From assembly GCA_947500385.1 (NCBI GenBank), contig CANMSA010000002.1, positions 124,001-188,000 on the forward strand: 64,000 bases of DNA. Direction: 5' to 3'. Below the pieces are notes generated by a model that saw only the letters and a list, made by a program, of their open reading frames with translations, did not search any database and had not been told where the DNA came from. Positions 7,047 to 35,368 of the stretch are shown here, piece by piece (positions within the stretch are counted from its first letter, which is position 1; every line of letters begins with the position of its first letter). A program made the position numbers and the translations under genes. The stretch comes from an uncultured Flavobacteriaceae bacterium (GTDB lineage Bacteria > Bacteroidota > Bacteroidia > Flavobacteriales > Flavobacteriaceae).

Positions 7047-8096
7047 TTATTTAGAAGCAAAGGAATTCCATCCCTGCGCGGTCAACGCAATTTTGGTATT
7101 GGCGCGAGTTACCAAATGCGCGCCTTCGTTCACATCGGTCATATGACCAATTACGGTCAAATGTGGGTTTCCTTTTGTTTTGAGAAAATCTTTTTGGTCA
7201 ATGGTGAAAAGCAATTCATAATCCTCACCACCACTAAGGGCTACCATGGTACTGTCTATATTAAACTCCTCACATGCACTTATCACCGTGGGGTCTAACG
7301 GAATCTTGTCCTCGAATAGGTTACAGCCAACTCCGCTATTTCGGCATAAATGAAGAATTTCGGAGGAAAGGCCATCACTGATATCGATCATCGCCGTAGG
7401 CCGCACCTCCAGTTGATCAAGCAATTCTTTTATATCTTTTCGGGCCTCTGGTTTTAATTGTCTTTCCACAATATAGGAGTAGGGCTCCAAATCGGGCTGA
7501 TTTGCAGGGTTTACCTTGAAAACCTCTTTTTCGCGCTCCAATACTTGCAGGCCCATATAAGCACCGCCTAAATCTCCACTGACTACTAACAGATCATTGG
7601 GTTTTGCCCCGCTTCGATAGGTCAGTGCTCCCTCTTTTGCTTCCCCTAGGGCCGTAATACTTAGTAGTAAGCCTGTTTTAGAGGAAGTGGTATCCCCGCC
7701 GACCAGGTCTACGTTGTATGCATTGGCCGCCAAGGCGATTCCGGCATACAGTTCCTCCAAAGCCTCTAAAGGGAACCGATTCGATACGGCCAATGATACG
7801 GTAATCTGCGTTGGAGTCGCATTCATCGCGTATACATCTGAAAGATTTACGATCACTGCCTTGTAACCTAAATGTTTTAAGGGCATATAGCTGAGGTCAA
7901 AATGAACCCCTTCTATCAGTAGATCGGTCGTAACCACCGTTTTCTGATCGGTAAAATCGAGAACGGCCGCGTCGTCGCCCACGCCGACCAGCGAAGATGT
8001 CTGTTGAAGCTTAAAATTTTTGGTCAAATGTTCGATCAAGCCGAATTCCCCCAACTGTTCAAGCCCTGTACGTTCTTTTTCCTTGTCTTCTAACAT
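7047..8096 (-). CDS. thiL: Thiamine-monophosphate kinase
   Basis: GVGDDAAVLDF, TTDLLIEGVHFDL, GGDTTSSKTGL, DISDGLSSEILHLC, SGGEDYELLFT; start set to MLEDKEKERTG at 8096. Confidence 0.95.
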   Translation of the reverse strand: MLEDKEKERTGLEQLGEFGLIEHLTKNFKLQQTSSLVGVGDDAAVLDFTDQKTVVTTDLLIEGVHFDLSYMPLKHLGYKAVIVNLSDVYAMNATPTQITVSLAVSNRFPLEALEELYAGIALAANAYNVDLVGGDTTSSKTGLLLSITALGEAKEGALTYRSGAKPNDLLVVSGDLGGAYMGLQVLEREKEVFKVNPANQPDLEPYSYIVERQLKPEARKDIKELLDQLEVRPTAMIDISDGLSSEILHLCRNSGVGCNLFEDKIPLDPTVISACEEFNIDSTMVALSGGEDYELLFTIDQKDFLKTKGNPHLTVIGHMTDVNEGAHLVTRANTKIALTAQGWNSFASK

Positions 8097-8339
8097 GCGG
8101 CAAAAATAAGCGTATTTTTTGCAACAAAAGCCATGGTTTGGTAGGGTTTTTGATTGTCTAAGGTGTTTACCAGATGGTATTGTTGCGTCCATGGTTGCCA
8201 ATAAACACTATCTTTACATATGGGCATTGGTGGCAATGGCCATGCCAGTGAATGGTGCAACCCTTTAAAATACCAAAAGTTGTACGCCTCAAGCGAATAT
8301 CGCAGGTGACCTTTGTAAAAAACGATTAAATACCTCCGC

Positions 8340-19660: not shown

Positions 19661-19693
19661 GGAATCATAGGATAGGCAGTAAGACGCCAAAAA

Positions 19694-19859
19694 GTAAAAC
19701 GCCCCGACAGTCTCGGGGCGTTTTTTTGTTAAGTAGGATTCGTTACATTAGGTTGCACAGTCAATAAAAATCGAACTAATAAAGTCTTATGCAGATTTGG
19801 GCAAATCCAAATACCTAAAAAGGTATTACAAACACTAAATCTTAAATACATAACGAATG
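19694..19859 (-). ncRNA. Candidate sRNA module A
   Basis: Minus -7-like box TCTATTTG (19866-19873), ACCTACTT-like motif (TCCTACTT at 19731-19738), terminator hairpin 19700-19720; 21-bp direct repeats upstream. Confidence 0.45.
19700..19727 (+). terminator. Intrinsic terminator (probably bidirectional) after the DUF3078 gene
   Basis: cgccccga-cagtc-tcggggcg ttttttt. Confidence 0.9.
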
Positions 19860-19889
19860 TAGGAGCAAATAGAGGGTGCGCTAAATTTT

Positions 19890-19920
19890 TGTTGTGAATA
19901 CAACCAAAGATGTTGTGAAA
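19890..19920 (-). promoter_or_regulatory. 21-bp-spaced direct repeats upstream of candidate sRNA A
   Basis: gttgtgaa at 19891 and 19912. Confidence 0.6.
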
Positions 19921-19987
19921 CAAGTTAAAATGCGTTGTTTCATCGATGAAATACACTTGAAAATAGGGGTGTATTGCGAAAAGTACA

Positions 19988-20099
19988 TTTAAAAGCCCTG
20001 GTGTTACCCAGGGCTTTTACTAAGTAGGTTTGGTCTAATTTGGTTTGGTCTTTTATTTTGGCTAAGCTTTGATTTGGGAATCTAGTCTTTCGCTTTATT
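19988..20099 (-). ncRNA. Candidate sRNA module B
   Basis: Minus box TAAATTTA (20106-20113), ACCTACTT (20022-20029), hairpin aaaagccctgg-tgttac-ccagggctttt (19991-20017). Confidence 0.5.
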
Positions 20100-20140
20100 A
20101 CAGTGTAAATTTACTACCACTTTCAATGAAATTTAAATTA

Positions 20141-20171
20141 TTGTTGTGTGTCAAGTGGAAAGTGTTGTGTA
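20141..20171 (-). promoter_or_regulatory. 21-bp-spaced direct repeats upstream of candidate sRNA B
   Basis: gttgtg at 20143 and 20164. Confidence 0.65.
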
Positions 20172-20237
20172 TACTACCAAAGGTCTTAAATGTTCGATGA
20201 ACTGCACGTCGAGCATTTCTGTAGCTAGGCATTCTGT

Positions 20238-22679
20238 TCATCCTTTTTTCGAACGCAAGCTGTTAAAATCTAAGAAATAAGTCATTTTTAAGGAGATGGT
20301 ACTACTATTTTCCGCTCGCAAGCTATTGCCAAGGTTGCTGCCATAATTGTAGTTCAAGGAATCGGTAAAGCTTTCACTACCATACCTCCAAAAGAAACGC
20401 AGTTCGCTCGCAGGGGCAAACTGCCACCGGGCAGAAAGCTCTCCAAGGAAATTATTGTAGTTGGTGTCAAAGGCATCGACTTCAATTGTCAAATCGTTCT
20501 CTTGCAGGTTTCCAATAGGGGACAAAGAAAATTGCCCCATATAATTTACCTGGCTCCAGTAATGCCGTAAACGCAGATTAGTACTTAGCTTAGGGTTGAG
20601 CACATATGAAATTTGTAATTGATTGCTCCATTCCTGAATGCTGCGTTTTCCTATAAGCACTTGGCTATCCAAACGGGTCATGTAGCCGTGATTGGCATCC
20701 ATATACTCCAAGCTTTGGTCTAGCTTAATACTTAAATGTTGTCCTAGGTTAGCGGTTAAACCATATCCCCAATCAATACTATATGTGAAGGTATCCGAAT
20801 TCATATAATTACGCGTTTCTAGATACGATGCAAAGTAAATGGGTTTGTTCGAATTGGTCTGTACTTCACAAAAGGTCTGTAAGAATGCGGGTCTGTTAAA
20901 AGGTTGGTCCGGTGTGCGAGCTTCAAAAAAACTAGTGCTGGGCTCACGATACTGGACCCCCGCAATGAGGTTCATGTTGTTTTTTAATTGCCCGAAAAAC
21001 TCCACGTCGTACAAGGTAGCTTCCTCTTCCATCAATGAATAGTAATATTGCTTTAAAAAGAGTCCTCTCAATTGGTAATAGTTAAAGGTTTTTTCCGGGT
21101 TGAATTTTTTGTAGATAACATAGTTGGTGAGATTCAATCGATTGTTCCTTGGTAAAAACCCAAAATCATTTGAATCAAAGGTATCGTCATGTAATTCGGC
21201 CCGAATCCCCATATTCCAAGTGCCACTTATTTTCTCTAAAGCGGCATAGTAGTTTTGTCCAAAGCTGTTCTCCTCTTTGGAGCTATACTGCTGGGAGAGC
21301 GCCGCCCTTAACTTAAGGGAGTAGCTTCGCTTTTTATTGAAACCGGTAAATAGCAGGGCACTGAGGTTGGCATCATAGTCATTGCCCTCCCGCAAAACAG
21401 AATTGTTTAAAAAGCTGATGGAGGAGTTGTTTTTCAAAGTTTGATCTACAACAAGGGCGTTGTAATTTGATAAGGGATCGGTCTGTACTTCCCTAAGTTC
21501 GCCAGTATCGGTATTTTCTACAGTGGCATAAGTCCTGTTCGTAATACCATTAAGCACTCCAATGGAGAAACCGTTTTCAGATTTGCCGGTAAATTTGATA
21601 AGATTAAGAATGTTCGATGAGATGGGGTTTTCTATGATTTCCTCTCCTTCTTCTAGTTGTTCTGCCACTGAACCACTTTTTAGGGGTCTCCCACCAATTC
21701 TTCTTGAGTAAAAATAGCCGCCTTTATCGAATAGCTCCGTGCCTTCAACAAAAAACTGTCTGTTCTCGTTGAACTGAATCTCAAAAGGAGAAAGATTGAG
21801 TACTTGATTATCGGAGGGCGCTTGACTAAAATCGGGAATTAGGGAAACATCCAAGGTATATGAGTTGTCATAAACATATTTCATATCCATGCCTGCGTTC
21901 AATTGGGTGGTTTGCCCATCGGTGAAAGGGTTACTTTCTGTAAATACCGAGGTAAAAGGAATAAATGAAAGGTTCAAAGGCGGTTGTATTTTTGACATGC
22001 CGGTAGCGCGACCAAATTGATTTAAGAAACCGTCTTGTTCGATGTCGATATGATTCCAATACGTATCTTCATTATTAAACGCCGAAAACCGCTGAAAGTT
22101 CACACGTACATTGCTTAGTTCTTCCTTAGGGAAACGAATACTGTTAAAGGGTATTTTCATTTCCACCGTCCATTGGGTATCTTCAATAACGACCTTACTT
22201 TCCCATACTACATTGAAATTTGGATAGCTGTCATCGTTTGAAATTTTTTGATCGAACTGCACACCCGCACTGGTCACCAAAAATTCATAACCATCTTGTG
22301 AAAGACCAAAGGGATCTAACCCCAATCCAAAAAAATCACTGTTGCCCAAATCATCACGGGCGGTTAAAATGGTATTGATTTGAGATCGGTCAGATACATG
22401 CAGCTTGGCCGCAATATAAAGGTAGGTGTTGTCATAAAGGACGGCGACTTCCGTTTTTTGAGATGCCTGTTCGCCATTGTTTGGGGCAGATTGTACAAAG
22501 GTAAAAGGGCGCAATTCCGATTCCCAATCCCCTTCATTTAATAGGCCGTCTACTTTAATGGTCCCTGTTTTATGGTGAATATTAATGTGTTGTAGACTAT
22601 CCTGTGCCTTTAGATACTGACTTGGAATGCTATAAAAAACGAGCACTATGAATAAGCCGGTTTTTGAAAATGTTTTCAT
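20238..22679 (-). CDS. DUF5916 / carbohydrate-binding family 9-like domain protein
   Basis: IKVDGLLNEGDWES; LDPFGLSQDGYEFLVTSAGVQFDQK; NENRQFFVEGTELF; start MKTFSKTG at 22679. Confidence 0.88.
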   Translation of the reverse strand: MKTFSKTGLFIVLVFYSIPSQYLKAQDSLQHINIHHKTGTIKVDGLLNEGDWESELRPFTFVQSAPNNGEQASQKTEVAVLYDNTYLYIAAKLHVSDRSQINTILTARDDLGNSDFFGLGLDPFGLSQDGYEFLVTSAGVQFDQKISNDDSYPNFNVVWESKVVIEDTQWTVEMKIPFNSIRFPKEELSNVRVNFQRFSAFNNEDTYWNHIDIEQDGFLNQFGRATGMSKIQPPLNLSFIPFTSVFTESNPFTDGQTTQLNAGMDMKYVYDNSYTLDVSLIPDFSQAPSDNQVLNLSPFEIQFNENRQFFVEGTELFDKGGYFYSRRIGGRPLKSGSVAEQLEEGEEIIENPISSNILNLIKFTGKSENGFSIGVLNGITNRTYATVENTDTGELREVQTDPLSNYNALVVDQTLKNNSSISFLNNSVLREGNDYDANLSALLFTGFNKKRSYSLKLRAALSQQYSSKEENSFGQNYYAALEKISGTWNMGIRAELHDDTFDSNDFGFLPRNNRLNLTNYVIYKKFNPEKTFNYYQLRGLFLKQYYYSLMEEEATLYDVEFFGQLKNNMNLIAGVQYREPSTSFFEARTPDQPFNRPAFLQTFCEVQTNSNKPIYFASYLETRNYMNSDTFTYSIDWGYGLTANLGQHLSIKLDQSLEYMDANHGYMTRLDSQVLIGKRSIQEWSNQLQISYVLNPKLSTNLRLRHYWSQVNYMGQFSLSPIGNLQENDLTIEVDAFDTNYNNFLGELSARWQFAPASELRFFWRYGSESFTDSLNYNYGSNLGNSLRAENSSTISLKMTYFLDFNSLRSKKG

Positions 22680-22756
22680 CTGTTTGGGTTTAAGGTTATT
22701 TGTAGACAAGCGTTGTTTTGAACAATTCAAATATCTGCCGACCTGCCGGATAAGCA

Positions 22757-22785
22757 GGTTAAATGGGGGTTAAAGACAGGTTAAT
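22757..22785. promoter_or_regulatory. Three 11-bp-phased GGTTAA direct repeats in a divergent intergenic region
   Basis: ggttaa at 22757, 22768 and 22779; related gttaacgg at 22865 and 22876. Confidence 0.6.
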
Positions 22786-22954
22786 GTACTTTTTGGGAAA
22801 GAGTAAAGCGCATTAACATAACCGACAAAAGCTCCATTTAATGGGACTTTCCAAGCTTGTTAACGTTAACGGTGGGTTAACGGCCCCCAATTGTTGGGCG
22901 AGCAGAAGGCTTTATAATACTTTTGAGGTGTTGAAGAATAACGACCAAGCCATT

Positions 22955-24340
22955 ATGCAACAAAAAATAAACATACTGATAGTCACGGCGATTGCAACAT
23001 TGCTCGCCTTGGTAAGTATTCAAACCTATTTGATTTACAATACCTATGAACTTAAGAGAGATGCTTTTTTAAATGAGACTCGAACGGCCATCGGCAGAAT
23101 TGATGATGAAACGGAGGCCATTGTAGAGATCGATGATCTTTGGGATCAGCGTTTTATGCAGCTATTATGGGAATACCGATTTAAGAACCTTTCGAAAGAA
23201 ACACTTTTGAATGAGTTGAAAAAGCAAACGGACTCGTTGAACGACACCTACAATAAACTGTATGCCGAAGAACTAAAGAAGACCAATTTGGGTTTTGACA
23301 TCAAGTTCAAAAAGAATATCCATACCGTAATCTTGTTCGATACTATTCGCCATGACACGGTGTTTCCATTTAAGGGTCATGATCGGATCTTAAAATTTGG
23401 AGAGGATTTTCAGGAGAGTGAAGGGTACAATGTAAGCAAAGCCCTTTGGCAATCTGATTATATACAACAAGAAAATGGAGAGGAAAAAGCATTGGAGTTT
23501 TTGGTCCGGACCGAAGATCGAATGAACATTTCTGAATGGAAACGCATTGTTTTAGGAAGAATGTCGGCGCTTTTGGCAGGATCAATTCTCCTATTGATTT
23601 TTGTGGTCGGACTCTTCTACTATTCCATTAAAAACCTGATCAAACAAAAGAAGGTAGCCGATGTAAAGACCGATTTTATCAATAACATTACCCATGAGCT
23701 TAAGACCCCTCTGGCCACCTTGAGTATTGCCTCCAAAAGTCTAAAAAAGAAAGAAATCCTGGCTTCCCCGATAGCTTTTGAAAGCACCCTGGGCATTTTA
23801 GATCGCCAGAACGATCGGTTGCAGAAATTGATCGATCAGGTCATGACCAATAGTTTGGGTTCGGAAGATTTGGTACTGCATAAAGAGCAGGTAGTGGATC
23901 ATATCTACCTCAAGCATTTGATAGATGATTTTACCCTGTCGGTTCAAAGTAAAGACTTGACCATTGAGCGCGCCATTGAAACAGCAGAGGTAATGCTGCG
24001 TATCGATACTTTTATGTTTACCACCGCCTTGTTCAATATCCTTGAAAATGCTGTAAAGTACGGTAAGGAGAAAGTAATGGTCACCATCTCGACCCGGTTG
24101 AAGAACAACCATTATGAGATTATAATTGCAGATAACGGAATCGGAATCGCCCCAAAAGACCTCGATACTGTTTTCGATAAGTTTTATCGTATCTCCTCAG
24201 GGAATGTGCACAATGTGAAAGGATTGGGCCTTGGCCTCTATTACACGAAACAGGTGGTGGATGCACACCAAGGAACCATTGAAATTGAAAGTGAGTTGGG
24301 TCAAGGAAGTACATTTATTATAACCATACCAGTAAACTAA
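22955..24340 (+). CDS. Sensor histidine kinase
   Basis: Two TM segments; DFINNITHELKTPLATL; NILENAVKYG; DNGIGI; GLGLGLYYTKQVV; start MQQKINIL at 22955. Confidence 0.95.
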   Translation: MQQKINILIVTAIATLLALVSIQTYLIYNTYELKRDAFLNETRTAIGRIDDETEAIVEIDDLWDQRFMQLLWEYRFKNLSKETLLNELKKQTDSLNDTYNKLYAEELKKTNLGFDIKFKKNIHTVILFDTIRHDTVFPFKGHDRILKFGEDFQESEGYNVSKALWQSDYIQQENGEEKALEFLVRTEDRMNISEWKRIVLGRMSALLAGSILLLIFVVGLFYYSIKNLIKQKKVADVKTDFINNITHELKTPLATLSIASKSLKKKEILASPIAFESTLGILDRQNDRLQKLIDQVMTNSLGSEDLVLHKEQVVDHIYLKHLIDDFTLSVQSKDLTIERAIETAEVMLRIDTFMFTTALFNILENAVKYGKEKVMVTISTRLKNNHYEIIIADNGIGIAPKDLDTVFDKFYRISSGNVHNVKGLGLGLYYTKQVVDAHQGTIEIESELGQGSTFIITIPVN

Positions 24341-24346
24341 GAAAAC

Positions 24347-25030
24347 ATGACAAACGTACTATTGGCAGAAGATGATTTTGATTTTGGAAGCATTCTAAAG
24401 CAATATTTGGAAATACATGAATACCAAGTTACCTGGGCCAAAGATGGGAAGGAAGCATTGGAACTATTTACCAAAAACAACTTTGACATCTGTGTTTTTG
24501 ATGTAATGATGCCGAAGCTCGACGGCTTTAGCTTGGCCGAAAAAGTGGTCGACATAGATCCTGGAGTACCCTTTGTGTTCCTGACCGCCAAAAAACTGAA
24601 GGAAGATCGTATTCAAGGACTGAAATTAGGTGCCGACGACTATATCGTAAAACCTTTTGAAGCCGATATTTTAGTACTCCGGTTGCGAAACATTCTTAAA
24701 AGAACACAACGCATTCAGCCCAAAAAAGAAAAGCTACATCGCATTGGGGGGTATGAATTTGATTCGATCAATCACAAATTGCTGTTTCAAGAAAGCGAAC
24801 AAAGGCTTACCGAAAAAGAAACCGTGCTCATTCAATACTTGTACGAGCATAAAAATACCATGGTAAAAAGAGACGACCTCCTCAAAGACGTTTGGGGCAA
24901 CGACGACTTTTTCTCAGGAAGAAGTATGGATGTATTTATTAGCAGACTGCGAAAGTACTTTAAGCAAGACTCATCAATTGCAATAGAAAGTGTTCGTGGC
25001 GTAGGACTCACCTTTAAGGTAGACCAATAA
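24347..25030 (+). CDS. OmpR-family response regulator
   Basis: Receiver (LLAEDDFDFG, FDVMMPKLDGF, KPFEADILVLRL) plus winged helix ending SVRGVGLTFKV. Confidence 0.96.
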   Translation: MTNVLLAEDDFDFGSILKQYLEIHEYQVTWAKDGKEALELFTKNNFDICVFDVMMPKLDGFSLAEKVVDIDPGVPFVFLTAKKLKEDRIQGLKLGADDYIVKPFEADILVLRLRNILKRTQRIQPKKEKLHRIGGYEFDSINHKLLFQESEQRLTEKETVLIQYLYEHKNTMVKRDDLLKDVWGNDDFFSGRSMDVFISRLRKYFKQDSSIAIESVRGVGLTFKVDQ

Positions 25031-25076
25031 CGGAGTTTATTTCATCAATTAATCAATCAAAACAAATACTAATAAT

Positions 25077-26306
25077 ATGCGACAATTTGCACTTACACTT
25101 TTACTGATCACCGGAATGGTGGGCCATTTAAAAGCGCAGACAGCTGAGGAGCGTTTGCGATATCAACTTGATAGTATTTCACAACACAAAGACCTTAGCG
25201 GGTTTGGAGTATCCATCTTTTCTGCTGACTCCCTTTATTTTCAAGAAGGGTACGGGTATGCCGATGTAAAACAAAATAAAGCGTACCACCCCAATACGAT
25301 TCAAAATATAGGTTCTATTTCCAAGACATTCATAGGTGTTTCTTTAATGAAGGCGGTAGCATTGGGAACGTTTACCATGAATACTCCTGTGAACGATATC
25401 TTACCTTTCAAGGTAGTGCACCCCAAGTTTCCTGAAAGTGAGATAACCATTCACCACCTAGCTACCCATACCTCCGGGATATTCGATTTTGAAAAGGGAT
25501 ACGATCATAGTTATGTGTTAGAGGATCCCAGTACGGTTACACCGGCAATTTATGGAACCGAAATGGCGAAGTATTTAAAGCAAATAAAGGACAATAAAGC
25601 CGTGCCATTGGGCACCTATTTGCAGGCTTATTTAACCCCCAAGGGCAACTTGTTCCATAAAAAGAACTTTTTAAAAACAGCCCCGGGAGAGCGCTACGAA
25701 TACTCCAATGTTGGTTCGGCACTTGCGGCCTACTGCATCGAAGTTGCCACGGGGTTAACCTTTCCGGCCTTTACCCAGCGTTATATTTTTGACCCCATCG
25801 GAATGGAGGATACGGGCTGGTCGTACGATGCCATAGACCGGGAAAAACATGCACAAACATATGCCAATAATGGGCAAGCATTGCCGCCCTATTCCTTGAA
25901 TACATATCCCGATGGTGGTTTGAGAACCAGTATTGAGAGTCTAACGAAATATATACAGGCCATTGTACGATCGTATGAAGGAAACAATACCCTATTACGC
26001 TCCGATCTTTGTAAGGAAATGATCCAAGCCCAGGTGAGTCCCGAGCAATACGGAGATGAAGAAGAAACAGATAGTTATGGATATTTCTGGGAGTACAATA
26101 GAGATGTGGTAGTGGGACATAATGGCGGCGACCCGGGTATTTTAACCCTTATGTACTACTACAAGGACATAAAAATGGGAGCCGTGTTCTTTACCAATAC
26201 GAATGTAATAGACAACCCGGTTGCGGCAAAACAAGTGCAGGCGTGTTGGAATGCCATACGAACCTATCAAAAAGCGGTCAATAACGATAAAAATTATAAA
26301 GAATGA
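25077..26306 (+). CDS. Serine hydrolase (class C beta-lactamase-like), secreted
   Basis: Signal peptide; SISKTFIGVSL (SxxK); YSNVG; GHNGGDPG. Confidence 0.93.
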   Translation: MRQFALTLLLITGMVGHLKAQTAEERLRYQLDSISQHKDLSGFGVSIFSADSLYFQEGYGYADVKQNKAYHPNTIQNIGSISKTFIGVSLMKAVALGTFTMNTPVNDILPFKVVHPKFPESEITIHHLATHTSGIFDFEKGYDHSYVLEDPSTVTPAIYGTEMAKYLKQIKDNKAVPLGTYLQAYLTPKGNLFHKKNFLKTAPGERYEYSNVGSALAAYCIEVATGLTFPAFTQRYIFDPIGMEDTGWSYDAIDREKHAQTYANNGQALPPYSLNTYPDGGLRTSIESLTKYIQAIVRSYEGNNTLLRSDLCKEMIQAQVSPEQYGDEEETDSYGYFWEYNRDVVVGHNGGDPGILTLMYYYKDIKMGAVFFTNTNVIDNPVAAKQVQACWNAIRTYQKAVNNDKNYKE

Positions 26307-26767
26307 AACACATAGCAATTACAATAATGGTTGTTTTTGGCTCGATGATCGGTGTTTTTGCCCAAGACGATCATACAACCGAAAACCTATTTTATCTAAG
26401 CGCGGATATGGTGAATGTTTATGGATTTGAAGCCGACACCAAAGGGTCTCGTTTCGAATATCAGTTTGAGGATGACTATACCCTTAAAATTACGAACAAG
26501 GTGTATAAAGTGGCACTGTTTTTTGACCAGGACCAGCGAGAAGCGGTTCAAAAACTGGTATCCAGTGTTATGGGCAATGGGGAAGCCACCAGTGGTTTCG
26601 AACAAATGAGTTGGAAAAAAACAGCCGAAAATGGCAAAACCATGCATGAAGTAAAGGTAGAAGACAAAAAGCTAAAAATCACGGTATTTCGCAAACAAAT
26701 AGATGTAGCAGGGTTTGCCGAGATCAATGAATTGGGAAAAGCATTTTTAAAAGAAATCAATAATTAA
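26303..26767 (+). CDS. Hypothetical secreted protein
   Basis: Signal peptide MKHIAITIMVVFGSMIGVFAQ; 4-nt overlap with the preceding gene. Confidence 0.7.
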   Translation: MKHIAITIMVVFGSMIGVFAQDDHTTENLFYLSADMVNVYGFEADTKGSRFEYQFEDDYTLKITNKVYKVALFFDQDQREAVQKLVSSVMGNGEATSGFEQMSWKKTAENGKTMHEVKVEDKKLKITVFRKQIDVAGFAEINELGKAFLKEINN

Positions 26768-26778
26768 AAACAACAATC

Positions 26779-27387
26779 ATGAGAATCATCATTTATTTAG
26801 TATTAAGTATCATTTTAGGAATCTTAACGGGCCATAGCCAAGAAACGACTACGACTACAACGGCCTCCACCTCTAGCGTCTCTATCTCGGTCGATGGCGG
26901 TAACGTAGATTACGAACAAAAGGGAAGAACCTACTTTTCAATCAGCGATTCTGATGATAGCTACAAGGTACGTTCAGAATTCCATGAGAGTAAGACAGAT
27001 AAAATACGGTCGTATCTGCTAGAAGAATTAGGGGATGAATACTTAAATACGATGGGCAATAAGTATAAATGGAAACGTTCGTACGCCGGTGATACGGGCT
27101 ATGAGGTAAAGTTGAGTAACGGCGCTTTGAAAATTTATCTTGACAAAGAGCTATTGTCAAATGGAATGGTGAAAAAATTCAAGACCATCACTCGAAATAT
27201 AAAGGACTATACTTCGGGAAGGTCGAGCGAAGAACGGACGGCAGCACAACAAAAAAGAGAAGACGAAAAAATAAAAAGGGAAGCGGAAAGGCTCGAACGG
27301 CAGGCTGATCAAAAAATGAGGGAAGCAGAGCGCCTCCAAAGAGAAGCAGAACGGCTCAAACGGGAGGCAAAACGAAAAAACAGATAA
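26779..27387 (+). CDS. Hypothetical secreted protein with charged coiled-coil C terminus
   Basis: Signal peptide; REAERLxREAERLxREA heptad-like tail. Confidence 0.7.
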   Translation: MRIIIYLVLSIILGILTGHSQETTTTTTASTSSVSISVDGGNVDYEQKGRTYFSISDSDDSYKVRSEFHESKTDKIRSYLLEELGDEYLNTMGNKYKWKRSYAGDTGYEVKLSNGALKIYLDKELLSNGMVKKFKTITRNIKDYTSGRSSEERTAAQQKREDEKIKREAERLERQADQKMREAERLQREAERLKREAKRKNR

Positions 27388-27543
27388 CAAAAAAAACCCT
27401 GACATCAACGTCAGGGTTTTTTGCAAGTAGGTCTTTAAAGATTTGGTAACAAGCGTTGTAGGTTCAGTGCTGATTTGGGGAAATCAAAGCACTGGTTGTA
27501 GGTTAGTTCCAGTGTGATTTGGGGTCGACACTATCACTTAATT
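27388..27543 (-). ncRNA. Candidate sRNA module C
   Basis: Minus box TATATTTA (27550-27557), two internal stem-loops, ACCTACTT (27425-27432), hairpin aaccctgac-atcaac-gtcagggtt with T-run on minus. Confidence 0.5.
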
Positions 27544-27585
27544 ACATTGTAAATATAGAGGGAGCCGCTAAAAAAAGTACAATTA

Positions 27586-27616
27586 TTGTTGTCAAACAAT
27601 CGTGGGGTGTTGTGTG
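27586..27616 (-). promoter_or_regulatory. 21-bp-spaced direct repeats upstream of candidate sRNA C
   Basis: gttgtc at 27588 and gttgtg at 27609. Confidence 0.6.
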
Positions 27617-27705
27617 TCTTATGAACGGTTCTTTTTCTCGGATGAATGACCTTTCGGACTAGAAGGTTTCTATCTTTTTCGGTACGGATTCGGAATATAG
27701 TTTCA

Positions 27706-27865
27706 TAAAAAAAGCCCCGATGGGGATCGAGGCTATTCTTTTAAAGTAGGTTTGTTACATGCAGTACTTTTAAATGGTTATATAAAGTAGGTTAATTGGT
27801 GTTTTTCTGTTTATCTCGATTCACTCTTTTAAAAGCAAATAAAAGGCTTTTGGTATACTATTGAT
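27706..27865 (-). ncRNA. Candidate sRNA module D
   Basis: Minus box TATATTTG (27872-27879, exact TAnnTTTG), ACCTACTT at 27744-27751 and 27785-27792, minus-oriented terminator AGCCTCGAT-CCCC-ATCGGGGCT-TTTTTT. Confidence 0.55.
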
Positions 27866-27906
27866 ACAGGTCAAATATAGAATTGAAAGAGCGTTTGTCT
27901 AAATTA

Positions 27907-27937
27907 TTGTTGTGAACCAAGCACATTCTGTGGTGAA
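27907..27937 (-). promoter_or_regulatory. 21-bp-spaced direct repeats upstream of candidate sRNA D
   Basis: gttgtgaa at 27909 and gtggtgaa at 27930. Confidence 0.6.
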
Positions 27938-28171
27938 CCGTAGCAAGGGTGTAAATTGATCGACGAAATACAATGAGATCTGCACTTTGCCTGGAGAATC
28001 TTTCCATACATGAACGGCTCCGAATGGTTTGGAAAAAAACGATCGGGGTAAGATAAGTAGCCAAGCGGAACTTGCCAATGGCTTTGCTCTTTTCTACCGA
28101 TGGGTACGCTGTTTTGAAAGATGATTGAAACGAGCGTTCCCAATTTGTCTTACAACTGTTTCCCGATTACA

Positions 28172-28235
28172 CACAACAGTTTATCGATGATACACAACAA
28201 ACACAGGGCCTCCCTCATTTATTCATATAAATTTG
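28172..28235 (+). promoter_or_regulatory. Putative adhesin-operon promoter with 21-bp-spaced repeats
   Basis: cacaaca at 28172 and 28193, TAAATTTG -7 box at 28228-28235, ATG at 28300. Confidence 0.6.
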
Positions 28236-28299
28236 AAAGAAAAATACTACGATTGTATGTGGTATTTATTTGAGACTACGACTGACCACACCAATTTTT

Positions 28300-31200
28300 A
28301 TGGGGCGAAAAAGATTATACGAAAGTAATGTAAGTGCTTTTAAAATAGGCAAAAAAAGGAAATTAAAGCGCCGCTCCGTCTTGATGTTGGGAGTGTTGGT
28401 TTCGTTTTTTTTCTTACAAAAACTACAAGGGCAAGATTGTTCGGTAAACGCAGGGATACCCGAAACTATCTGCCAAAACAACCTTAACTATACGTTATCG
28501 GGCTCCGTAACCGGGCAAGTGCAAGGAGACCCACTTTGGTCACAAGTTGCCGGCCCACCGGTTCTCTTACAAGATCCTTCCGATTTGAACAGTGCTATTT
28601 TTGGAATGCAAGGGGGCAATAGTTACACCTTTAGACTAAGCGCTAACTGTTTCGATGGTAGTACCCAGTTTCAAGATATCGAACTTACGGTGGCACCCAT
28701 TACGATTGCAGAAACCAGTAACGATTTGTTTTCCTGCCCGGATAGATCAGGAACTATAGAAGTATATGGGAATCCTCCGGAAAACTCTGGAGAAGTAGGT
28801 ACTTGGACTTTTGAGGGCAATAACAATGCAGGAGTGATCATCCACGAACCCAATTCACCCACTACTACTATTAGTTTATTGGAAGTATATGCCGGTACGA
28901 CCACCTTACGATGGACCATTCGTGGTCCTTCGGATGCATTAGGGCAGTACTGCGAATCGTATTCTGAAATGCTTGTCACCAACTATGGGGGTAGGGCTAT
29001 TGTCAATGCGGGTCCCGACCAAAGTTTGAATAATTGCTATTCAGTTTCCCAGAGTACCGGACTAAATGCGTATTTCGGGGGGAGCAATATTAATGGGCAA
29101 CAAGGCACCTGGTCATTGGTAACCGGGCCGAGCACCCCCGTTTTTGAAGATGCAAATAGTAATACGACCCAGGTTTCTAATTTGATAGAAGGCACGTACG
29201 TATTACTATGGACGGTAGATGGCCCCTGTGTTACCGGTTCCGATACAATGACCATCACCGTTGACGAGGCTTCACAAGACGTAACAAGTGCTACCACCGA
29301 ACATCAAAGTCTTCGTTTTTGCGATAGTTCGTTTACGACCACTACCCTGTTAGGGGCACTTCCAATATATACCGGTGAAACCGTACAATGGTTGCAAGTC
29401 GAAGGTCCCGGAGTTACCACCGCCGGGGCTCCTGCTTCTATCAGCAACCCAACTAACAGTGCCACCCAGGTTTCCAATCTCGATGGTGAAAGCACCTATG
29501 TTTTCTCGTATACAATTGCCAATAATGCAACCGGTTGTTCAGATACCAGTACTGTAACGATTGCCTACTCGATAGAACCTATCGCAATTGAGGTAAATGA
29601 TGGAAATGACATTGTTCCACCATGTGGGGAAACCAAAGTATCCATTCCGTTTACCACTTCCGGGGATGCCGCAACTTCTTACAGTATCGTCAGCGGACCT
29701 CCAGGTTCCAGAATGGTAGATTCAGATGATTTCGAGGCGATTGCAAGTACTCCCTTGTCACTCGATTTTGATGTTGAAGGAACGTATACCATACTCTTTC
29801 GAAGAAAGGTAAATGGATCCCTACAGCAAGGCTGTCAGGAAGCGACTGCTTCGGTAAACGTGCATATTTCATCTATTCCAACACCTGCAAATGCCGGTAC
29901 CGGTCAAAACCTCCCTTGCAACCTTACCCAAACATCCTTAACGGGAAATGTCATTTCTTCAGGGACCTCGCTGTGGTCCCAAATAAGCGGTCCGAGTACA
30001 GCGAACATTACGGATCCTTATGCCCGAACAACACAAATAAGCGACTTAGAATCAGGAACCTATACCTTTCGATATAGCGTATCGGGCGGACAACAATGTA
30101 CCCCTGCCCAATCAGACGTGCAAATCATCGTCTCCTCCTCGGCGATTGTCGATAGCGATGCCGGAACCGATCAAACCATCTGTTTTGGCTCCCAGGTACA
30201 ATTGAATGCAAACACGCCATCGGTATCTACCCTTGAAGGTATCTGGAGTGTGAACAGTGCTCCAATTGGTACAAATTTATCTTTTGGCGACGTCAACGAC
30301 CCGAACACCATTGTATCTGGTTTTAACGACCCAAGTGAGACCTATATATTAAAGTGGACCATACGAGATCCGAACAACCCTAATTGCCCAGCCCCTAGGG
30401 AAGATACCGTAGTAATTCGTACCAATTCAACCGAGGGCCCCTCTTTTGCCAATGCGGGGCCAGACCAATGCCTGCCGGCAGGAACCACCTCCGTTGCCCT
30501 TATGGCAAATGCACCAGCGGCAGATGAAACAGGCGCATGGTCGGTAACTCCTAGCGTGGGTTTTTCATTTGCCGACCATACCCAATTCAATACTATGGGG
30601 ACGATCTCGAGCCCAGGCACCTATGTACTCACTTGGACGCTCGACAAATGTCAAACCAGTTCGGATGAGGTGGAAATTACGGTTCTTGACGGCATAGATG
30701 CTGACGCTGGCCCCGATCGCTCAAGCTGCTCCGACCAATTGACCATGGCAGCAAGTACCACTAGCGGATTAGGGGAATGGACATTGGTTTCGGGCCTTGG
30801 CGGGGTGACCATCGATGATATAAATAGCCCCACTGCAACTTTTACATTTACCTATTCGGGAGAATATGTTTATCAATGGACCGTGCGTAAAGGGAGTTGT
30901 TCGGAAACCTCGGATACGGTTCAGGTAAATATAGGGGTTCCCCCTACCGTGGCAAGTACCGGCGCAAATCAAACTATTTGTAATAGCAATTCGCTGGTAC
31001 TCAATGGGAATGCATACGATACCAATGTAGAAACCGGTTATTGGACCCTGCTTAGCGGAGCTCCGAATACCCCTACTATTGCAAATGTCAATGACCCGAT
31101 TTCCGGGGTGACCAATCTCGTTTCGGGTATTTATACGTTTCGATGGACGATTACCGGAGTCGATTTTTGTGCCCCCTCCTTCTCCGATAGTACCTACGAG

Positions 31201-34041
31201 GTTTTTGTGGTGGCCGACGCCGGCGTAGACCAGCAATTATGTGAATCTGAGAACACCATATTACAAGCGACCCAGGGTTCTACGGGAACTTGGCTTCAGA
31301 TTGATGGACCCGGAGTGAATGGAAACCCGGGAATACCCGCGACTATTTTACAAAATCCGGTAAATGGTCCGCGTGCCGAGGTAACGCTTACCACCGGTTC
31401 GGAGTACGTGTTCGAGTTTACCACTGATTATACAACTTGTGCATCAACCAGCGATCAGGTGGTAATTTCAACAAGTAATTCGTCTAGTGCAAGTCCCGAT
31501 GCCGGAGAAAATCAAGTGATTTGTAATGCCGCAGGGAATACCTCGGTAACCCTAGACGGCAATGACCCTATTATCGCTGGTTTTGATACCACTATCCCCG
31601 GGAACGAAGCTTATTGGCGGTTTGCCAGTGAACCCGAAGGGAGTATTGCCACTATCACCGACCCTACCATACATAACACGACGCTTACGAATCTTGTTAC
31701 TCCGGGAATCTATATTTTGGAATGGAACTTTTCCGCCCAAAATTGTACCGATGAGGCCGACGTAGTTCGAATAGAGGTTTTTGAACCCTACGATGCTATT
31801 GCAGGACCAGATCAGCCGAATGCCTGCCCGGCCTCCGTAAATCTAAATGCTGTTGCGCCACCCTTGGGAATTGGAGAATGGCGTCTTGTTACGGATCCTT
31901 CGGGTGGGGCCATTGTAATAGAAAGCCCCAATTCCCCTACTTCAAGTCTATCAAATGTGACTGCGTTGGGAACCTATGTCTTTGAATGGACCGTCACCAA
32001 CGGAGCCTTTACCTCGGGAAGTTGTGCAAATGCTACGGACCGTGTTGCCATTACGTTCACCGGGGAAGCGCCCGATATGCCAGAAGCTGGGTTGGATCAA
32101 GCATTGTGCAGTCTAGATCAAACAAGCTTGGATGCTATGCCTTTGTCGGTGGGAACCGGAACCTGGTCGCAAATCTCGGGCCCTGGAATAACAGTGCCAG
32201 GTGCGTTGGCGACGATTGCTACGATAGATGACCCTAAAACGCGGATTACCAATTTAGAGGCGGGTACCTATGAGTTTGTTTGGACGAGTAGTAATGGAGG
32301 ATGTTCGTTTTCCGACGCCGTGACCATCATGGTTTTTGACCAGGCAAATTCGGTGGAAGCCGGCGCCGATCAGACATTGGGGGAGTTCGATATTGTGCAG
32401 TTGAACGCAGCACCTACCATGATTGGAGAAGGAAGTTGGAGCCAAGTTTCGGGGCCCACACCTGCAAATTTTATCGCTGCAAATGACCCGACCACCCCGG
32501 TTTTGGGAACCGCGGTTGGCGTATACGTGTTTGAATGGACTATTACCAACGGAACCTGCAACCCTATATCGGACCGTGTTACCATAACATTCGAGGGGAA
32601 TGCCGACTTAGAACTTACGAAAGAAGTAACTCCCGAGCAAGCACAGGCAGGAGATACGGTACGGTTTACCATCTCGGTCTACAATAATGAAACGAATGGT
32701 TCTGCAGATGCTACAGGAGTTTCAATTGTTGACATGGTGCCGTCCGGATACCTGGTTTTACCAGAAAGTATCAGTGCGAATGGAATGCATAATCAAGACG
32801 AATCCATTATTTGGTCGAACCTCGAAATTGCCAATGGCGCCACCTTTGAACTTAGTTTTGAAGCAATCGTTAACGTAGGGGGAATCTATACGAATTCTGC
32901 TGCTGTAGTTGCCTCTGACCAAGAAGATAGGGACTCCGATCCCGGGAATGATCTTATTGGGGAAGATGACCAAGATACTGCCAGTGTGTTAACGGCTGAC
33001 TTGAGTTTGGAAAAAACGGCCAGTAGCTCCGAAGCCGTTGCAGCGGATACGGTTACATTTATTCTTACGGTCACCAATGATGGAGATGAGATTGCCACCG
33101 GGGTAGGGGTGCAAGACATGCTTCCCATTGGTTTTGCCACTGTAACCAACATTAGCGACCTAGGGGTACTCACAGAAAGTGATAGGGTCGTGTGGACGGG
33201 GTTGACAGTACTACCGGGCGAATCGATCGAACTGAGTTTCGATGCGATAGTACAGGCCTATACAGGGGGCGAGAACGAATATTTGAATAGAGCGGAGATT
33301 ATTGCAAGTGACCTTTTAGACCCCGATAGTACGCCCAACAATGGTACGGAAGCATTAAATGAGGACGATGAAGCACGCTTTGAAGTTCGTTTTCCATCTA
33401 CCGACCTAGGCCTAACCAAAAGTGTGGACAACGCGAACCCCGGAATCGGGGAAGCGGTGGTGTTTTCCATTACCGTTTCAAATTTGGGTGATACAGATGC
33501 AAGTACCATAGGTATTGAGGAACTACTTCCCTCGGGATACCGCTTTGTAAATGCCCAATCGACGGAAGGTAGTTATGATGGGGTTTCAAATTTCTGGAGT
33601 ATCCCGTTACTAGAGGCCGGCAAGAATGCTACCTTAGAACTTACCGTTGAAGTATTGAAGACGGGAACCTATCTCAATGAGGTGCAATTGGTTTATTTGG
33701 ATCAAATTGATTTAAACGACACCAACAATAGCGCAACGGCAAACCTCGTTCCCCGATGTTTGCTGGTGTATAACAAGTTTTCTCCGAACGGGGACGGTAT
33801 CAACGATTTCTTTAAAATTGATTGTCTCTCGGATTATCCCAATAGTGTGCTTACCATTTTTGACCGTTGGGGGAAAAAACTGTATGAGGCGAAAGACTAC
33901 CAGAATAATTGGCAGGGAATTTCTGAAGTAAATGCGACCGTAAATGCGGGGGAAAGGCTTCCCGAAGGTACCTATTATTATTCCCTTGATTTGGGAGATG
34001 GTTCCAAGCCCATTGTAGATTGGCTTTACTTAAAACATTAA
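28300..34041 (+). CDS. Giant T9SS-secreted adhesin-like protein: PKD-like repeats, DUF11 repeats, CHU_C gliding-motility C-terminal domain
   Basis: Many DAGxDQ...L..GxYxFxWT repeats; DUF11-like DLxLxKxVxxxxxxxGDxVxFxIxVxN; C-terminal KFSPNGDGINDFFKI...IFDRWGKKLYE. Confidence 0.93.
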   Translation: MGRKRLYESNVSAFKIGKKRKLKRRSVLMLGVLVSFFFLQKLQGQDCSVNAGIPETICQNNLNYTLSGSVTGQVQGDPLWSQVAGPPVLLQDPSDLNSAIFGMQGGNSYTFRLSANCFDGSTQFQDIELTVAPITIAETSNDLFSCPDRSGTIEVYGNPPENSGEVGTWTFEGNNNAGVIIHEPNSPTTTISLLEVYAGTTTLRWTIRGPSDALGQYCESYSEMLVTNYGGRAIVNAGPDQSLNNCYSVSQSTGLNAYFGGSNINGQQGTWSLVTGPSTPVFEDANSNTTQVSNLIEGTYVLLWTVDGPCVTGSDTMTITVDEASQDVTSATTEHQSLRFCDSSFTTTTLLGALPIYTGETVQWLQVEGPGVTTAGAPASISNPTNSATQVSNLDGESTYVFSYTIANNATGCSDTSTVTIAYSIEPIAIEVNDGNDIVPPCGETKVSIPFTTSGDAATSYSIVSGPPGSRMVDSDDFEAIASTPLSLDFDVEGTYTILFRRKVNGSLQQGCQEATASVNVHISSIPTPANAGTGQNLPCNLTQTSLTGNVISSGTSLWSQISGPSTANITDPYARTTQISDLESGTYTFRYSVSGGQQCTPAQSDVQIIVSSSAIVDSDAGTDQTICFGSQVQLNANTPSVSTLEGIWSVNSAPIGTNLSFGDVNDPNTIVSGFNDPSETYILKWTIRDPNNPNCPAPREDTVVIRTNSTEGPSFANAGPDQCLPAGTTSVALMANAPAADETGAWSVTPSVGFSFADHTQFNTMGTISSPGTYVLTWTLDKCQTSSDEVEITVLDGIDADAGPDRSSCSDQLTMAASTTSGLGEWTLVSGLGGVTIDDINSPTATFTFTYSGEYVYQWTVRKGSCSETSDTVQVNIGVPPTVASTGANQTICNSNSLVLNGNAYDTNVETGYWTLLSGAPNTPTIANVNDPISGVTNLVSGIYTFRWTITGVDFCAPSFSDSTYEVFVVADAGVDQQLCESENTILQATQGSTGTWLQIDGPGVNGNPGIPATILQNPVNGPRAEVTLTTGSEYVFEFTTDYTTCASTSDQVVISTSNSSSASPDAGENQVICNAAGNTSVTLDGNDPIIAGFDTTIPGNEAYWRFASEPEGSIATITDPTIHNTTLTNLVTPGIYILEWNFSAQNCTDEADVVRIEVFEPYDAIAGPDQPNACPASVNLNAVAPPLGIGEWRLVTDPSGGAIVIESPNSPTSSLSNVTALGTYVFEWTVTNGAFTSGSCANATDRVAITFTGEAPDMPEAGLDQALCSLDQTSLDAMPLSVGTGTWSQISGPGITVPGALATIATIDDPKTRITNLEAGTYEFVWTSSNGGCSFSDAVTIMVFDQANSVEAGADQTLGEFDIVQLNAAPTMIGEGSWSQVSGPTPANFIAANDPTTPVLGTAVGVYVFEWTITNGTCNPISDRVTITFEGNADLELTKEVTPEQAQAGDTVRFTISVYNNETNGSADATGVSIVDMVPSGYLVLPESISANGMHNQDESIIWSNLEIANGATFELSFEAIVNVGGIYTNSAAVVASDQEDRDSDPGNDLIGEDDQDTASVLTADLSLEKTASSSEAVAADTVTFILTVTNDGDEIATGVGVQDMLPIGFATVTNISDLGVLTESDRVVWTGLTVLPGESIELSFDAIVQAYTGGENEYLNRAEIIASDLLDPDSTPNNGTEALNEDDEARFEVRFPSTDLGLTKSVDNANPGIGEAVVFSITVSNLGDTDASTIGIEELLPSGYRFVNAQSTEGSYDGVSNFWSIPLLEAGKNATLELTVEVLKTGTYLNEVQLVYLDQIDLNDTNNSATANLVPRCLLVYNKFSPNGDGINDFFKIDCLSDYPNSVLTIFDRWGKKLYEAKDYQNNWQGISEVNATVNAGERLPEGTYYYSLDLGDGSKPIVDWLYLKH

Positions 34042-34075
34042 AAAAGTGGATTCCTGAAAGCCCAAACCAACTCTT

Positions 34076-34996
34076 ATGAAAAATTTTTTTCTATCAATAC
34101 TGCTAGTGCTAGTCCTGCTTAACATCTTCGTGCTTACCGCGCAGCAAGAACCACATTTCGCTCAATACACCTATAATACGATGACCGTAAACCCTGCCTA
34201 TGCCGGGTCAAAAGAATACTTATCGGCAATTGGGATGCATCGTTCGCAATGGGTAGGGGTAAACGGCGCTCCGACCACCCAATTTGTTAGCCTGCATGGG
34301 CCTACAGAAAGCACCGTGGGCTGGGGTATCGGGATTTCCAATGAAGCTTTGGGGCCTGTGAACAATTTGGTATTCGATGCTAATTTTTCGCATACGGTTC
34401 CGTTACATCATAAAAACAAGAAACTCTCTTTCGGGTTAAGGGCCGGGGCGCGTGTGTTCGATGTGGATTTTTCCAAAGGGCTTGCAGAGAACGAGGACAT
34501 TGCTTTTCAAACGAATATTCAAAATAAGTTTTTGGGTAGTATCGGTGCCGGAGTCTATTATAGATCCGAAAAGACCTATGTGGGTTTATCGGTACCCAAT
34601 TTCTTTACCCAAGAATACTATGATCCGTTAGAACAAGAGATAGATGTGGCGCGCTTGCATTTCTTTTTGATCGCAGGGACGGTTTTTGAATGGAACAAAG
34701 AGGTGCTGCTGAAACCTTCAATTTTCTCAAAATGGGAAACGAATAATGATTGGGTGGCCGATATTGCGCTAAGCGCCTTGTTCAAAGAAACGTTGAATGT
34801 AGGCCTCGCCTATCGTCTTGGCGACTCGATTGCCGCATTGCTAGGGGTACAGATAGTCCCTAGCATTCATATAGGATATTCGTATAACCTAAACAACAAA
34901 GAGTTGAAAGGCTATAATTTCGGCACGCACGAAATCTTGATTCGGTATGACTTTAAGAACGGAAAAACACGCTTTAATGCCCCTCGTTTTTTTTAA
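34076..34996 (+). CDS. PorP/SprF family type IX secretion system membrane protein
   Basis: QQEPHFAQYTYNTMTVNPAYAGSKEYLSAIGMHRSQWVGVNGAP. Confidence 0.95.
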   Translation: MKNFFLSILLVLVLLNIFVLTAQQEPHFAQYTYNTMTVNPAYAGSKEYLSAIGMHRSQWVGVNGAPTTQFVSLHGPTESTVGWGIGISNEALGPVNNLVFDANFSHTVPLHHKNKKLSFGLRAGARVFDVDFSKGLAENEDIAFQTNIQNKFLGSIGAGVYYRSEKTYVGLSVPNFFTQEYYDPLEQEIDVARLHFFLIAGTVFEWNKEVLLKPSIFSKWETNNDWVADIALSALFKETLNVGLAYRLGDSIAALLGVQIVPSIHIGYSYNLNNKELKGYNFGTHEILIRYDFKNGKTRFNAPRFF

Positions 34997-35013
34997 AACG
35001 CACAGGGGTGGTA

Positions 35014-35144
35014 TAAAAAAACCCCGGCTGGGGAGCCGAGGTGATTTTTTAAAGTAGGTTTGTTACATGCGCATTTAATTTTTTAAAAGCTGTTTCGGTT
35101 AAGTTCAAGCGATTTGTTTTGGGAAAAAAGGCTAACGCTTTATA
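35014..35144 (-). ncRNA. Candidate sRNA module E
   Basis: Minus box TATATTTA (35151-35158), CATGTAACAAACCTACTT (35052-35069), minus terminator CCTCGGCT-CCCC-AGCCGGGG-TTTTTTT. Confidence 0.55.
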
Positions 35145-35186
35145 ACACTGTAAATATATTTCCGATTTTCCGATAGGGATACACTA

Positions 35187-35217
35187 TTGTTGTGAACAGG
35201 CCCTTTTTTGTTGTGAA
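35187..35217 (-). promoter_or_regulatory. 21-bp-spaced direct repeats upstream of candidate sRNA E
   Basis: Two exact copies of ttgttgtgaa at 35187 and 35208. Confidence 0.7.
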
Positions 35218-35368
35218 AAATACAAGAGGTTCAAAATAATCGATAAATGGTAGTCTTTAAAGGCGTAGCTTTTGAAGGAACTCCCGGCTAGAAATCAAGA
35301 GAGCGACGGTCATCTTGTTGATTTTGAACAATGACATCGATACATCTTACACAGAACAATGCTCTCAA

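Follow-up and report, generated by a model that had tools for sequence, protein, structure and literature searches.

Which role do the repeated intergenic modules on the minus strand of a 64,000-nucleotide stretch of a Flavobacteriaceae genome (hereafter the window) play, and what controls them? A preliminary description had read them as a five-copy family of putative regulator-activated small RNAs, distributed over three intergenic loci. Flavobacteriaceae are major degraders of marine polysaccharides and gliders, and fish pathogens are found among them; to our knowledge, their sRNA networks are almost unstudied and very little is known about them. Rfp18 of F. psychrophilum reportedly has at least three stem-loops, the third of which is said to do the pairing.

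Five modules with a rigid promoter

Upon re-inspection of the sequence, all five minus-strand modules (A to E) were recovered, at coordinates that agree to within a few bases with those of the preliminary description. Read on the minus strand, each of them consists of a TTCATCGA-like upstream element, CACAACA, 14 nt, CACAACAATAATTTA, 20-odd nt, a TAnnTTT(A/G) box, the RNA body, CCTACTT and a terminator. The pair CACAACA-N14-CACAACAATAATTTA (at most 3 mismatches) is present five times in the window, always inside a module, and did not occur in 100 dinucleotide shuffles. Since the repeat period is 21 bp in every module and the second repeat is followed by the start of the TAnnTTT(A/G) box at a distance of 35-36 nt, we conclude that the promoter is rigid.

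For module A, the promoter (19854..19950; E = 4e-16 with R1, our sequence model of the promoter) comprises the upstream element at 19950-19943, the repeats at 19918-19911 and 19897-19890 and the box TACATTCG at 19861-19854; the putative sRNA (19688..19847, start approximate) carries CCTAC at 19737-19733, a GCCCAAATC loop at about 19801-19797 and a terminator at 19724-19696, which was called in both directions. The corresponding promoter elements of module B (20106..20201, R1 E = 1.4e-20) are located at 20201-20194, at 20170-20163 and 20149-20142, and at 20113-20106 (box TAAATTTA), and its sRNA (19985..20099) contains CCCAA at 20078-20074, CCTAC at 20028-20024 and a terminator at 20019-19990. 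Module C encodes the fullest form of the RNA (27385..27543; C-rich loops at 27524-27520 and 27480-27476, CCTAC at 27502, 27462 and 27431, terminator at 27422-27391) behind a promoter at 27550..27646 (R1 E = 2.5e-18; upstream element 27646-27639, repeats 27615-27608 and 27594-27587, box TATATTTA at 27557-27550). In module D, a promoter at 27872..27967 (R1 E = 2.8e-19; upstream element 27967-27960, repeats 27936-27929 and 27915-27908, box TATATTTG at 27879-27872) is followed by an sRNA at 27708..27865 with two AACCTACTT boxes (27791 and 27750) and a terminator at 27734-27713. Module E combines a promoter at 35151..35247 (R1 E = 2.3e-18; upstream element 35247-35240, repeats 35216-35209 and 35195-35188, box TATATTTA at 35158-35151) with an sRNA at 35015..35144, in which CCCAA lies at 35123-35119, CCTAC at 35058-35054 and the terminator at 35042-35021.

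The terminators of modules B, C, D and E were called on the minus strand, and in D and E the T-run directly abuts the hairpin on this strand only, as had been argued before in favour of the transcript direction. The ORFs within the modules show no excess length over shuffled sequences (median 17 vs 16 aa), in agreement with the earlier statement that none of them is a supported coding sequence. The AACCTACTT motif was found five times in the window compared to 0.6 expected occurrences, and four of these are within modules B, D (twice) and E; its counterpart is ATCCTACTT in module A and GACCTACTT in module C.

The TTCATCGA element (e.g. 20201-20194) precedes the first repeat by about 31-32 nt and is kept in the promoters of the window-type RNAs and of a small protein described below, while the type II promoters introduced in the next section have no conserved copy of it; it might be the site of a second regulator.

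The promoter genome-wide and in relatives

Genome-wide, the five-copy family holds for the window but not for its promoter, which has 8 strong copies in the 6.03-Mb genome. Five of these belong to the window modules (hereafter type I), two, on contigs C4 and C6, to a different sRNA (type II), and one (C2:78694) to a micro-protein of 35 aa. The type II sRNA is about 75 nt long with the near-invariant core TTTTTTCATTTTCATATAGTGTTCTCG, and further copies of it follow weaker sites on C8 and C3 (loci L007, L010, L019 and L020 for C4, C6, C8 and C3, respectively). The UUUUCAU words in this RNA complement the start context AUGAAAA, a frequent one that is present in 141 of 994 start regions.

We applied R1 to 60 relatives and to 400 genomes of the family. 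Strong multi-copy matches were obtained in all 10 same-genus genomes and in three other genera (13 of the 60 relatives), and nothing comparable was present in the remaining 47. In the larger set, 71 of 400 genomes, spread over 44 genera, were promoter-positive. A scan of named genomes for the exact promoter pattern yielded 86 stretches, from genera including Zobellia, Pseudozobellia, Maribacter, Arenibacter, Muricauda/Flagellimonas, Euzebyella, Kriegella, Ulvibacterium, Eudoraea, Croceitalea, Cellulophaga and Pelagihabitans.

A LytTR response regulator co-occurs with the promoter

As the candidate regulator we identified a LytTR response regulator gene (C3:256005-256754), directly downstream of which follow a type II sRNA copy and a gene for a TPR/HisKA_2 sensor kinase with a site of its own. 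An orthologue of the LytTR protein (90-100% identity) is encoded in exactly the 13 relatives with strong promoters and in 0 of the 47 others. Among the 400 family genomes, orthologues were found in 81, which include every one of the 71 genomes with the promoter (Fisher 2e-68; 1e-42 when counted by genus; both p-values ignoring common descent); 10 genomes have a homologue of the regulator without a strong promoter, and in 8 of them this homologue is divergent (58-74%). With 46 LytTR-domain matches, the genome carries a large set for its 6 Mb.

Published LytTR sites consist of 9-11-nt repeats with 11-13-nt spacers (PMC4847170), a rule to which the CACAACA repeats with their 21-bp period conform in all copies. 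As in the described systems (PMC4847170, PMC6193735), two direct repeats of about 9-10 nt with an 11-12-nt spacer lie just upstream of the core promoter, and the regulator cluster itself carries a site. The repeat sequence, however, differs from that of the Gram-positive examples, and in the present case it is combined with a TAnnTTTG promoter and with sRNAs. The literature searched contained nothing relevant on LytTR proteins or sRNAs in Zobellia or other members of the clade. From the repeat geometry and the co-occurrence it is very likely that the candidate LytTR protein drives the promoter by binding to the repeats. The window itself encodes an OmpR-type response regulator (24347-25030), which we did not retain as a candidate, since the 21-bp spacing and the co-occurrence favour the LytTR gene elsewhere.

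Structure and conservation of the type I RNAs

We collected 107 copies of type I from 40 Flavobacteriaceae genomes. A terminator was called automatically in 102 of them, and the median transcript measures about 159 nt. A CCTACTT-like box is present in 88 copies, in 87 of which it sits 4-12 nt upstream of the terminator hairpin. CCCAA motifs fall inside hairpin loops in 71% of the cases, compared to 25% with shuffled flanks, and CCTAC is predicted to be unpaired more frequently (0.76) than the average (0.55).

The structural analysis is based on single-sequence folds and on an arm-swap energy test with the terminator as positive control. Both upstream hairpins became weaker when 3' arms were exchanged between sequences (n = 47, p = 5e-5; n = 46, p < 5e-5); the hairpin arms of type I covary. 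RNAalifold on MAFFT alignments of type I gave no consensus pairs, probably because the hairpins shift relative to the sequence motifs.

R2, a model of the RNA body that detects module C with E = 1.6e-15, matched 46 of the 400 genomes, and all 46 were promoter-positive. Rfam scans of the window, the type II loci and the core locus described below, Flavo-1 included as had been proposed, returned sub-threshold noise only, with nothing at the gathering threshold. Type I has its own promoter, an intrinsic terminator, no conserved ORF and copies kept in relatives, features that characterize sRNA genes. This supports the view that modules A to E constitute one family of non-coding RNAs, predicted to be transcribed from the minus strand as molecules of about 115-160 nt. 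The reading as regulator-activated small RNAs likewise gains support from the order of promoter, motif and terminator, which is kept across the 40 genomes, from the covariation of the arms and from a specific LytTR candidate.

A family-wide core sRNA is complementary to type I

A search of the genome with R2 also led to five tandem elements on contig C22, the plus strand of which matches the type I motif. Their minus strand has the appearance of a compact sRNA gene with a TAnnTTTG-like box, GGACCATAGCATAAGTAGGTTAAGTTCATGGTAAGATTTGGGG and a terminator. This core sRNA is encoded in five tandem, almost invariant copies of about 72 nt (C22:10717-11905, i.e. L372:6718-7905), flanked by superoxide-dismutase-like and PurF-like genes (assigned by eye). 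R3, the model of the core, matched 320 of the 400 Flavobacteriaceae genomes with one to seven copies each, and the sequence is almost invariant in genomes with and without the regulator. The core sRNA matched no Rfam family above threshold, and we found no description of it in the literature searched.

According to the predicted fold, the core RNA exposes GUAGG in its apical loop and leaves AUUUGGGG unpaired (accessibility 0.98-0.99). These two stretches are the reverse complements of CCUAC and CCCCAAAU in type I; moreover, CCCAAAUC is followed by GAACUUAAC in type I at a gap of 7 nt in 15 of 16 cases, which matches the complement of the core. For 102 type I bodies, the predicted duplex with the core reaches a mean of -31.2 kcal/mol compared to -18.1 kcal/mol for shuffled sequences (mean z -4.25), while the controls were flat (reversed core, z -0.64; type II RNAs, +1.7). 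Within the window, module C pairs at -39.7 (shuffled -20.6), module E at -26.6 (-16.0), module B at -25.6 (-13.8), module A at -24.0 (-17.9) and module D, the weakest of the five, at -20.6 (-16.4). As far as can be predicted, type I has the pairing features of a sponge RNA, namely extended complementarity to an sRNA above chance and accessible sites on both partners.

Candidate targets of the core sRNA

The micro-protein under the same promoter (C2:78694, locus L008; further loci L078, L081, L089 and L105) is conserved and measures 31-35 aa (...EEIQVYKNDFFSGIVMLMRKLFML). In its leader, the same bipartite motif spans the start codon, and there the core is predicted to pair with a mean z of -3.6 over 15 genomes. 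Ranked among the 994 start regions of this genome, 13 of the 15 pairings are among the best 21; of the two weaker cases, one goes back to a mis-picked start and the other to a weak match. Two further start regions of the own genome look alike (C1:361310 and C1:316376), and one more, on C2 near 448842, bears CCCCAAAAACCTACTTATG. At other start codons, the bipartite motif was counted 6 times in sense and once in antisense orientation in 994 genes, and 0 vs 0 times in 342 more, so that a general enrichment at start codons is suggestive but was not replicated.

Proposed mechanism and alternative explanations

We propose that the LytTR regulator, with its adjoining HisKA_2 kinase, very probably binds both CACAACA repeats and recruits RNA polymerase to TAnnTTT(A/G); as one regulator would act on a shared promoter, all copies would switch on together. 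Each RNA is then very likely to offer CCC(C)AAA in hairpin loops and/or an unpaired CCUAC(UU) just 5' of the terminator, usually at several sites, which are predicted to pair with the tandem multi-copy core sRNA through GUAGG and AUUUGGGG. The core in turn may act on mRNAs with the bipartite motif across the start codon, especially the co-regulated small-protein mRNA. Type I RNAs would mimic this mRNA target, titrate the core and relieve its effect when the kinase is active. Because their motifs are the reverse complement of a family-wide sRNA, they most likely mop it up, and we assign a probability of roughly two thirds to type I RNAs being regulator-activated, multi-site sponges (target mimics) that titrate the core; the weak overall pairing of module D with the core speaks against it. 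The analysis demonstrates the sequence features, their conservation, the covariation, the co-occurrence and the complementarity; transcription, binding and the direction of the sponge effect are inferred. That a two-component system commands multi-copy sponges together with a second sRNA family and a micro-protein, all in order to control an undescribed core sRNA, appears somewhat better than an even bet.

Among the alternatives, the effect could run in the reverse direction, with constitutive core copies trapping or destabilising type I. The mRNAs or the protein would then be targets of type I itself, and the regulator would overcome the trap by mass production of type I. The complementarity is symmetrical, and genomes with the regulator have more core copies than those without it (4.0 vs 2.0, among the matches listed and ignoring kinship), although the latter is expected either way. 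However, the core is present in most family genomes without type I and regulator and must consequently have another job, and its complement spans the start codon of the small-protein mRNA, which makes a reversed direction unlikely. Type I RNAs could also be direct antisense regulators of mRNAs, using their C-rich loops and CCUAC, with core pairing being secondary. Listeria and streptococci have sRNAs that act in this way and that are likewise multi-copy, two-component-controlled and C-rich in their loops (PMC4132741, PMC3091779). We consider this rather improbable for type I, since sequences complementary to its conserved words show no sense-strand enrichment around start codons. Similarly improbable is that another regulator of the same phyletic distribution drives the promoter. 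The genome does contain 46 LytTR genes and the co-occurrence is confounded by common descent, but the sites flank the candidate LytTR gene, lying just downstream of it, in 13 of 13 genomes examined, and the protein is nearly identical (mostly 85-100%) from one promoter-positive genus to the next, consistent with a fixed DNA site. A role as Rsm/CsrB-like decoys for an RNA-binding protein, with which iterated C-loop hairpins, a repeated linker motif, 2-5 copies per genome and response-regulator control would agree, is very improbable, as it would not predict that the motif is exactly reverse-complementary to a conserved sRNA and agrees with it in spacing.

Comparison with known sRNA systems

In architecture, type I resembles the csRNAs and LhrC, and in its proposed action RosA. 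The csRNAs of the CiaRH regulon of Streptococcus (PMC3091779) are also homologous sRNAs from several intergenic loci of a genome, each with a direct repeat for the response regulator next to the promoter and with an intrinsic terminator; however, the CiaR repeat is TTTAAG-N5-TTTAAG instead of CACAACA-N14-CACAACA with a LytTR candidate, and csRNAs are presumed to target the start regions of mRNAs by pairing, whereas the best predicted partner of type I is another sRNA. LhrC1-5 of Listeria (PMC4132741) likewise exist in five copies under two-component control (LisRK) and repeat a C-rich motif in loops and single-stranded stretches, but they are unrelated in sequence and target mRNAs by blocking Shine-Dalgarno sites. 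RosA of Bacillus subtilis (PMC8464778) resembles our proposal as a stand-alone RNA under transcription-factor control that sequesters an sRNA through several complementary regions; it is controlled by CcpA and is a G-rich sponge of C-rich sRNAs, in contrast to the multi-copy family under LytTR-type control proposed here, in which a C-rich sponge would face a G-rich sRNA.

The nearest multi-copy family in Bacteroidota is FopS. FopS and GibS, described with RbpB in Bacteroides (PMC11697453), are paralogous multi-copy sRNAs with a conserved seed and a terminator as well, but they belong to Bacteroidaceae, have canonical promoters and a 5' single-stranded seed, and target SusC mRNAs. The FopS layout of a single-stranded 5' R1 seed and one terminator hairpin differs from that of type I with its upstream C-loop hairpins and pre-terminator box, a comparison based on layout and not on the R1 sequence. 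By the features tested, type I would thus belong to none of csRNA, LhrC, RosA and FopS.

The analysis yields three testable objects that are defined by sequence. The first is the candidate regulator together with its DNA site, the second the sRNA family under its proposed control, and the third the family-wide core sRNA, the pairing code of which (GUAGG/CCUAC and AUUUGGGG/CCCCAAAU) is directly usable for mRNA target prediction in hundreds of genomes. If the model is true, a whole layer of RNA-on-RNA control exists in Flavobacteriaceae.

Weaker promoter copies

Weaker sites were found upstream of protein genes, among them a haem-NO-binding (HNOB) operon, secreted proteins and a CHU_C gene in the window. 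The latter copy is located on the plus strand at 28172..28235 (genome C2:152159-152235, E = 0.033), divergent from module D, with a perfect 21-bp repeat (28172-28178 and 28193-28199) and TAAATTTG at the right distance (28228-28235); it precedes the gene for a 1923-aa CHU_C (T9SS) protein at 28270 and PorP/SprF genes. A weak repeat site at L147:6213-6292 precedes two tandem ORFs of about 32 aa (MLYDTYGEEYLNFLQDLNEILSLNELVELDYM and a relative). Another one, at L145:8281-8232, lies upstream of 7668-8210, before the HNOB / PAS kinase / FIST operon, and hints at a possible link to NO signalling.
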